This document shows positions 61,304 to 64,000 of a DNA stretch of 64,000 nt, piece by piece. The notes under the pieces were generated by a model. It made no database searches. It worked only from the letters and a program-made list of their open reading frames with translations, and was not told the DNA's origin. The translations under genes were made by a program, and so were the position numbers. The stretch comes from an uncultured Chloroflexota bacterium. GTDB taxonomy: Bacteria > Chloroflexota > Anaerolineae > Anaerolineales > Anaerolineaceae. The stretch covers positions 1 to 64,000 of the forward strand of contig CADATZ010000010.1 in the NCBI GenBank assembly GCA_902791025.1, written 5' to 3'. Numbering within the stretch: the first letter of the stretch is position 1; each line of letters starts with the position of its first letter.

Positions 61304-64000
61304 TTAGTTCAGAGGCTTCGCAAATACCACGCGGCGGTTGAGATATCCGCCATCAACGGATTCGTTTTCGCAGGTCACGAGCACCAGAGTGTTCGATTCC
61401 TGTTCAGCGATGGAAGCCAACTTTTCCATATCATTCGGCGCCAGCAGTTCATTCGCGTACACGCGGAAGAGCCGCAGGGAGCCGTCAGGAGCGTTGACAA
61501 AGATCGTGTCGTTGTTCTGCATCGTGCTGAGCAGGACGAACGGACCGGTTTCTTCAGCGTTCAGGGTGTTGTGGGCTGCCACGATGGAGTAGCCATCACC
61601 CGGGAGCGCGGTGCCGGAGAGCAGACCGGCGCGGTCTTCAAGCCATTCAACCTTCCATGCGCCATCCATAGTCGGGACGCCTTCCAGTTCCACGTCCACA
61701 TTGAGGGTCGGGATCTGGATGCGCATGTTGAGGTTGGTGTAGTTCAGACCTTCCGGTTTGACAGCCAGAGGCACATTCACACGGGTCGGGAAGCCGGTTG
61801 CCGGCAGTTCACCGCCCAACACACCGCAGCGCAGGCAGACCTTGTCAGGTTCACCGATGCGGAACATGTTGATGCGATTTAAACCTTCCAGGATACGCCA
61901 GGCCACAGTGACGCTGCTGGTCAGATTATTGATACCGGTCACTGTCACATTGTAAGAACCCACCTCGGTACCGCTGGTTTCTCCGGACAGTTCGTAATTA
62001 CCTGTCATGTCCACACCGTTCAGTGTAACGCTGACGTTGGCAGTGTGAAGACTGTCATCGAAATAAGCATTTTCGATCTCAATCATATCCTCGGTGATTT
62101 CCTTCGGATAGATCACAGAGAGCAGAACACCTGCAGGTTCCTCCGCACTTCCGACAGATTCGTAGTTGGCGCCGCCATCAATGTAATAGTAGATCAGGTA
62201 ACCACCGGCATTTGTCTTGGCAGGGAGCGTCGGGCTGAAGCTGGTTTGTTCCAGAGTTTTGGTCACAGTATCAACATCAGGATCAAGACCGTACATGAAG
62301 GTACCCTTTGAGGTTTCACCTGGGACGACGAGCAGCTGCGGCTGTGCGTTGTAGACCAGTTCCACACCGGTGGCATCTTCCACTGCTATCGGCGCGGTAT
62401 AATCTTCCTCAGTGATTTTTCCCTTGACGATCGTCAATTTCGCCTGTTTATCCCCTTCAAAGGTGAAGGACACATTTTCCGTAATGTAGTTTCTGCTGGT
62501 GTTTCTGCAGATCGTGCTGACTTCTCCGGAAAGATCCTTCGTATACTCACCCACATTTTTACCGCTTATGTTCATAGCCGTGCAGGTGAAGTCATTGTTG
62601 GAATAGGCAGGATAGGACACAGTCTTGATGGTGTATGCCGGGATCGTAATCTCCTGACCGGTGTACTCTCTGGTTTCATTATTAGCCTGGAGCACAACCT
62701 CAACCAAACCCTGATACGGCTTGATCTCGAAGGTGACGCCTTCGGCGACAACAATGTAATAGTTCTTGTTGACACCTGTTTCGTCAAGGGTCAGCGTACC
62801 CTGAGTGATCTCGTAGGTACCGACATCCTCCCCTTCTTCACGGGCAAGCGCACCGCTCGGGATTGGGTTGTCATCACCAAACATAGTGCTTCTGTCGCGC
62901 ATATAGGTCAGCTGCGGATCAGATTCACCGACGATCTTGAATTGACCTGCATCCGGATTGATCTTCAGCGGAGCCTTGGCGATTGCGACTTCCAGTGTAC
63001 CCAACGGTTCTCTTTCGGAGCCTTGGTCACTGTGGTTTGAGTCACCGGCAATGTAATACTTGATTGTGTAAGTCATCGCATCTTTCGCGCGAGGGCTTTC
63101 ATCAGTCATCGTACCATAACCAACCAGGACGTATTTCATTTGTCCACCGGACGCTTTACCGAGCCTGCTCAGCAGATTCTGTGCAGTACCGTTATAGGTC
63201 AGTCCGGTAGCAGCCACGGGTTCTTCAACCAGTTCAGCCGGAATAGCCCTGATCTCGAACTGTACGCCGGATGTGAAGTCATTATCACGGTTGAAGACGA
63301 AGTTCTTCTTGGATTCGGAAGTAAGGTCCAGGCTGCCCTGCATAATATTGTAGAAGCCAATTTCCTCACCCGTAGGACGATCGAGTTTACCGGTGAATTC
63401 CGGTTCAACGACAACTTCAACTTCAGGCTTATAGGTATAGGTGAATACCGGATCCTTTTCGTCGTAATACTTGAATTGTCCTTCATCCGGAGTGACCTTT
63501 ACACGGGTCCTGGCAATCGTCGCAGTCAAGCCGCGATAGCGCAGGGATCCGTTATCAGGCAGCAGGTCAGAGTGATTGTCATCTCCCTTGACATACCAGT
63601 AGATCGGATAATCACCGGCTTCTGTTCCCTGAGGAATTTCTTCAGAGGGTTTCTGTCCATCGAAGAAGTACAAGATCGTACCACCTTCAGCTTCGCCGGG
63701 GATCAGGAGGTCCTGAGCCGCACCGGTGTACTTCAGCCCATCGATCTTTCTCGGGGCCCAGGTAACTTCAGCAGGTGCCTTGGTGATCTCGAATTTCACG
63801 CCCTGATCGTCGAAGGTGAGCACATAGTTGCTGTCATCGGCCAGCTTCAGGGTACCCTGTTCATAGCCGTAGAAGCCTACATTTTCACCGGCATCACGGA
63901 CGATTGCACCGGACCATTTTGCGTCCTTGTTTTCTTCGCCATTGACCAAACCCTCAAAGTGGAAGTAATACACCTTGGGATCTTTGTCGCCGAAGGTCTT
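61304..64000 (-). CDS. MBG-repeat surface protein with LPATG motif and C-terminal sortase domain (5' end outside window)
   Basis: The frame is open to the right edge, so the N-terminus is missing; about 898 codons are seen. Most is an array of MBG-type beta domains (KTFGDKDP at the edge, FKYYDEKDPVFTYTYKPE, FKIVGESDPQLTYM) alternating with domains of the type YTGAAQDLL/YNGTAQNLL/YNAQPQLLV. Then come CLRCG and LPATGFP (codons at 61793-61807). The last 147 residues are a sortase fold with the triad: His in IVAAHNTL, Cys in LVTCENE, Arg in LNRRVVFAK. There is no C-terminal membrane helix. It may process its own LPATG or that of sister copies. Confidence 0.85.
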   Translation of the reverse strand, partial: KTFGDKDPKVYYFHFEGLVNGEENKDAKWSGAIVRDAGENVGFYGYEQGTLKLADDSNYVLTFDDQGVKFEITKAPAEVTWAPRKIDGLKYTGAAQDLLIPGEAEGGTILYFFDGQKPSEEIPQGTEAGDYPIYWYVKGDDNHSDLLPDNGSLRYRGLTATIARTRVKVTPDEGQFKYYDEKDPVFTYTYKPEVEVVVEPEFTGKLDRPTGEEIGFYNIMQGSLDLTSESKKNFVFNRDNDFTSGVQFEIRAIPAELVEEPVAATGLTYNGTAQNLLSRLGKASGGQMKYVLVGYGTMTDESPRAKDAMTYTIKYYIAGDSNHSDQGSEREPLGTLEVAIAKAPLKINPDAGQFKIVGESDPQLTYMRDRSTMFGDDNPIPSGALAREEGEDVGTYEITQGTLTLDETGVNKNYYIVVAEGVTFEIKPYQGLVEVVLQANNETREYTGQEITIPAYTIKTVSYPAYSNNDFTCTAMNISGKNVGEYTKDLSGEVSTICRNTSRNYITENVSFTFEGDKQAKLTIVKGKITEEDYTAPIAVEDATGVELVYNAQPQLLVVPGETSKGTFMYGLDPDVDTVTKTLEQTSFSPTLPAKTNAGGYLIYYYIDGGANYESVGSAEEPAGVLLSVIYPKEITEDMIEIENAYFDDSLHTANVSVTLNGVDMTGNYELSGETSGTEVGSYNVTVTGINNLTSSVTVAWRILEGLNRINMFRIGEPDKVCLRCGVLGGELPATGFPTRVNVPLAVKPEGLNYTNLNMRIQIPTLNVDVELEGVPTMDGAWKVEWLEDRAGLLSGTALPGDGYSIVAAHNTLNAEETGPFVLLSTMQNNDTIFVNAPDGSLRLFRVYANELLAPNDMEKLASIAEQESNTLVLVTCENESVDGGYLNRRVVFAKPLN

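Follow-up and report, generated by a model that had tools for sequence, protein, structure and literature searches.

An LPxTG sorting motif and an intact sortase domain stand side by side at the C-terminal end of a single secreted protein of this Chloroflexota genome, and the pairing reaches well beyond what the original prediction saw: it is a lineage-wide cassette, carried by dozens of unrelated surface proteins. Judging from sequences and predicted structures together, we think it reasonably probable that LPxTG, linker and sortase form a “self-sorting” module, which would cut its own Thr-Gly bond, hand the cargo to an amine in the envelope and then be discarded. We also lean, with somewhat less assurance, toward the view that the lineage has given up helix-tailed LPXTG substrates, served by one shared sortase, in favor of substrates that bring their own single-use sortase. 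Each such sortase would be docked on its own LPxTG, acting as a lid that can be cleaved, and the system would serve dozens of unrelated surface proteins in each genome.

The window (the whole 64,000-nucleotide stretch of DNA analyzed here) holds only the C-terminal part of the gene, whose 5′ part lies beyond it. The whole ATG frame on the contig, on the minus strand, encodes 2606 aa and begins with a signal-peptide-like N-terminus (MKSRVVLMALLCLLLIFTGVYAAD); it includes the upstream portion called for by the original prediction. Pfam finds seven MBG_2 stretches in this protein, followed by a C-terminal sortase (PF04203) whose score of 49.6 bits exceeds the cut-off of 26.6 and places it in the sortase superfamily. 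The features are as follows:

61304..64000, minus strand: C-terminal 898 residues and stop codon of the 2606-aa secreted MBG_2-repeat protein (G000:C10, L039:304-8124, minus strand)
61826..61837, minus strand: CLRC (CxxC) ahead of LPATG, not defining (CxxC in 8 of 145 tails)
61793..61807, minus strand: LPATG sorting motif, residues 2440-2444 of the 2606-aa protein; P, T and G invariant in alignments
61724..61792, minus strand: linker of about 23 residues from LPATG to the first sortase strand, variable except for Leu, Pro and Tyr anchors
61307..61723, minus strand: sortase core (PF04203), ending about 21 residues past the catalytic Cys, without a membrane helix
61571..61573, minus strand: catalytic His, invariant (202 of 202 aligned cores)
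61370..61372, minus strand: catalytic Cys in a TLxTC-type strand (VLVTC), invariant (202 of 202 aligned cores)
61334..61336, minus strand: catalytic Arg, the first Arg of NRRV (199 of 202 aligned cores)

The codons for His, Cys and Arg are all intact, and two of the three Arg exceptions among the 202 cores are sequence ends or gaps, the third (L122) having a neighboring Arg. Coordinates, Pfam and the triad alignment thus bear out the claim that LPATG and a complete sortase share one MBG-repeat chain; the claimed spacing of 35-40 residues was an overestimate, since LPATG lies about 28 residues ahead of the core. The claim that no membrane helix follows the motif also holds, both for this tail and for nearly all of the 145 motif-bearing tails collected from the lineage. 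The stop codon comes 19-54 residues past the Cys with no transmembrane stretch between, and the one tail of the 145 that looks weakly transmembrane after the motif owes this to the start of the sortase core itself. The CxxC pointed out earlier is present but incidental: occurring in just 8 of the 145 tails, it was ruled out as part of the mechanism. It lies shortly ahead of the motif here and at seven related loci, where a disulphide or metal site is possible.

PF04203 matches occur at 28 places in the 4.2-Mb genome, and 24 of these are C-terminal cassette tails (23 LPxTG-sortase and one IPDTG-sortase), borne by frames of 245 to 5630 aa; an additional tail is interrupted by a contig end. Of the other four, one is a sortase of 313 aa that has an N-terminal helix, one a lipoprotein-like sortase of 199 aa, one a class-B-like sortase and one a decayed copy; the stand-alone sortases carry no LPxTG motif. 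The decayed copy (L065, G000:C14:50641-50856) keeps the C-terminal half of the sortase, Cys included, but neither the His half nor the motif remains. Genomes of the same genus have from 2 to 47 PF04203 matches each, and three of them hold the IPDTG sub-family (L050, L070, L075), proteins of about 910-970 aa with a divergent sortase core.

The motif keeps company with the enzyme to a degree that chance does not explain. Among 154 tail-type domains, 145 have [LIVMFA]PxTG at the expected site; the remaining nine are mostly cut or shifted frames, together with two PxTG motifs with another first residue, one LPAAG and one stand-alone core. The LPAAG tail (L188) has an intact triad, which counts against self-sorting. 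Because the first tail profile included the motif, a second profile was built from the sortase core alone. With this core-only profile, PxTG was found within 50 residues upstream in 144 of 146 close cores vs. 4 of 52 more distant ones (three of these four belonging to the IPDTG sub-family), which rules out a chance motif. The residues that never change in a set of 87 diverse tails are P, T and G of the motif, the His-Cys-Arg triad and a few structural positions, while the linker varies; the invariance of P, T and G is partly by construction, since these tails were chosen for PxTG, a circularity from which the core-only test is free. The x position takes 16 residue types over the 145 tails, and the residue following Gly is Phe in 125. 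Further, the distance from the motif Leu to the catalytic Cys is exactly 145 residues in 72 of the 145 tails and 141-148 in nearly all.

The named relatives comprise Flexilinea and Leptolinea as well as other Anaerolineaceae. When 300 genomes of the phylum were sampled, 24 gave strong matches, all but one within the same order, and the exception is a 203-aa core without the motif. A tail search at class level, outside the order, returned stand-alone sortases along with giant proteins that end in a sortase, all lacking LPxTG, except in one genome labeled as the same class (G134, locus L120), which has the motif. Giant proteins of this kind come from other families of the class (L207 in G231, L208 in G299, L215 in G154, L209 in G276 and L210 in G182) and, in one case, from the same order (L216 in G033); their frames run from 1078 to >4400 aa, with a proline-rich or plain linker before the sortase. 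A plasmid of the Chloroflexota strain ZRK35 (CP069395.1, 73551-81260) encodes a protein with an LPQTGF-sortase tail, for which the annotation says no more than DUF11; this gene (L239) adjoins a heliorhodopsin gene.

In the predicted structures the motif lies on the sortase domain of its own chain. For the window tail the AlphaFold model has a mean pLDDT of 90, with 80-84 in the motif blocks; for a divergent relative (2966 aa, G035), modeled from 87 sequences, pLDDT is 96.7 overall and 98 in the block LPATGFAPGQ, the motif being invariant in the alignment supplied to AlphaFold. The motif Gly of the G035 model takes part in a beta bridge. Both models match solved sortases with Z of 14-18 and show the sortase barrel with His, Cys and Arg. 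Class C pilus sortases superpose on both from a residue ahead of the motif, and class A and E sortases mostly from the core only; it is from these superposition ranges that the motif is predicted to lie in the active-site groove, at the site of the class C “lid.” Extending the G035 superposition without gaps, which is itself an extrapolation, would bring the motif Pro onto Pro59 in the lid of S. pneumoniae SrtC-1, where the lid motif is DPW (numbering of PMC3493515, PMC3166054). By the same extrapolation it would come within 1-4 residues of the corresponding lid Pro for three entries from group B Streptococcus. In class C sortases the lid acts as a pseudo-substrate: it overlaps LPAT, and the prolines of the two take similar positions (PMC3493515), so the chain would cross the groove in the direction of a substrate and then enter the first strand. 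A motif at this position is insufficient by itself, as a class C sortase with IPNTG engineered into its lid and its Cys mutated showed the motif disordered in the crystal structure (PMC3166054). The earlier suggestion that the enzyme could act on its own chain is the reading with the best support: motif and enzyme are conserved together, x is free as it is in true substrates, and two AlphaFold models place the motif on the same chain at the class C lid position.

An unlikely but not negligible alternative is that LPxTG is cut in trans, by the tail of a neighboring copy or by a stand-alone sortase, and that the fusion mainly secures one enzyme per substrate. Trans action is how characterized sortases work, and the three stand-alone types of this genome (the 313-aa form with its N-terminal helix, the 199-aa lipoprotein-like form and the class-B-like form) could act in this way, which counts against self-sorting. 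However, the 313-aa type does not track the motif, since it also occurs in relatives, such as G016, where the search for tails came up empty, and cutting in trans needs neither the fixed spacing nor a high-confidence placement on the same chain. Small secreted sortases of 190-199 aa without LPxTG (L043, L088, L089) were also seen, and trans action is possible for them.

Less probable again is a regulatory role, in which LPxTG would act as a lid and, as a permanent pseudo-substrate, keep the sortase closed, while the enzyme serves other proteins and stays on the adhesin. The superpositions do put the motif at the class C lid place, and by analogy this segment may be a brake rather than a substrate, a point against self-sorting; class C lids mimic the binding of LPAT, and removal of the N-terminal extension raises class C activity (PMC3493515). 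Yet a lid has no need of Thr-Gly (class C uses DP(W/F/Y)), whereas these tails conserve P, T and G and leave x free, which is the pattern that marks a cleavable substrate. Moreover, LPxTG-helix substrates on which such enzymes could work are absent: PF00746 (LPxTG, helix and basic tail) has no match in 14 genomes of the genus, this one included, while control genomes were positive. Of 41 genomes of relatives, 2 do have matches (G026 and G033); since neither belongs to the family, classical anchors are present in other parts of the order. A DNA-pattern scan of this genome for LPxTGF, one form of LPxTG, found it in genes only within sortase tails (one of them cut by the contig end); free-standing LPxTGF proteins were dismissed as candidates, the matches of that pattern outside tails lying in frames of ≤88 aa.

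The N-terminal regions of the cassette proteins are mutually unrelated and include subtilases (three proteins), Cna_B, BspA-type LRR (LRR_5), List_Bact repeats, DUF6273, a metallo-beta-lactamase fold and MBG_2; one protein has 12 SpaA and 3 FctA stretches, and another (L064:2129-4597) combines a metallo-beta-lactamase fold, BspA-type LRR and the LPxTG-sortase tail. Many of these cargo kinds are what Gram-positive bacteria anchor via LPXTG. With unrelated cargo on a common tail, the cassette thus behaves as a portable C-terminal sorting domain. A device that cleaves itself but ends in hydrolysis, shedding an exoprotein into the medium, would suit the lack of a membrane anchor on either side and the subtilases, which could act free, but seems quite improbable given that sortases are mainly transpeptidases and that SpaA, FctA and Cna_B repeats and LRR are typical of wall-anchored proteins.

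If the cassette is indeed self-sorting, the precursor would be exported by its N-terminal signal peptide, and outside the membrane the sortase domain would fold with its own LPxTG docked in the active-site groove, at the class C lid place, as AlphaFold and superposition predict. The catalytic Cys would then cut Thr-Gly in cis and keep the N-terminal part, be it adhesin or enzyme, bound as a thioester until an amine of the envelope (candidates being a peptidoglycan stem peptide, lipid II or a lysine of another surface protein) resolves it and the cargo becomes attached; the sortase domain of about 165 residues would be released after this single use. Neither a membrane-retention helix nor a shared housekeeping sortase would be needed, because each cargo carries its own enzyme. 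The order of events, the acceptor and the cleavage we infer from the pairing of a conserved motif and an intact enzyme in one chain with a signal-peptide-like start, from the lack of helix anchors and from a predicted, ordered placement on the same chain. Since the cassette holds both the LPxTG signal and the sortase that recognizes it, each cassette protein of Flexilinea and its relatives probably processes and attaches itself without a separate enzyme.

Sortases are usually viewed as shared enzymes that act in trans on helix-anchored substrates. If the self-sorting reading is true, it would change the ways in which surface display can evolve, with new anchored proteins arising by acquisition of one cassette. 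Protein ligation would gain transpeptidases that occur naturally as single chains, and nature would offer an example of a class C lid that is itself the substrate, making the role of the lid directly testable. It would also explain the large and varied adhesin sets on gut and digester Chloroflexota, whose envelope type is debated (that of Flexilinea is disputed; PMC7203096).

The tail of the window protein falls below the cut-off of every NCBIfam sortase model listed here: class C (NF033745) at 32.6 bits vs. 160, class F at 38.7 vs. 166, class E at 19.8 vs. 160, class D at 18.4 vs. 165 and TIGR01076 at 31.8 vs. 39.35. Class F, the best of these matches, was rejected as an assignment, its score being far under the cut-off. 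We found no description of a natural LPxTG-sortase single chain in the open-access literature, and one may exist elsewhere.

Class C sortases are among the best matches in both sequence and fold, and an N-terminal segment occupies the class C lid site here as well. The spacing is comparable, at 134-135 residues from lid Asp to Cys (PMC3493515, PMC3166054) vs. about 145 from Leu to Cys here. The class C sortases, however, have a DP(W/F/Y) lid and a C-terminal membrane helix, neither of which was found in the tails, where LPxTG takes the place of the lid; and here the enzyme is the tail of its own presumed substrate. With Gram-positive LPXTG wall proteins (PF00746) the cassette proteins share a signal peptide, long repetitive or enzymatic cargo and LPxTG near the C-terminus, but where those proteins have a hydrophobic helix and basic tail, the cassette has a sortase domain. 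In manner of working they may resemble Hedgehog-type C-terminal domains, which use their own chain as a one-time substrate and pass the N-terminal part to an acceptor; that likeness is one of working only, the fold and chemistry being unrelated. Among engineered single chains, the STEPL design, with the sortase C-terminal to target-LPXTG, is reportedly closer to the natural arrangement than the Mao method or BISOP. In the latter two, sortase and LPXTG also share one chain, and such sortase-LPETG fusions cleave themselves between Thr and Gly, even while being expressed (PMC2901362); they differ in being man-made and in having the sortase N-terminal to LPETG and the target (PMC2901362).
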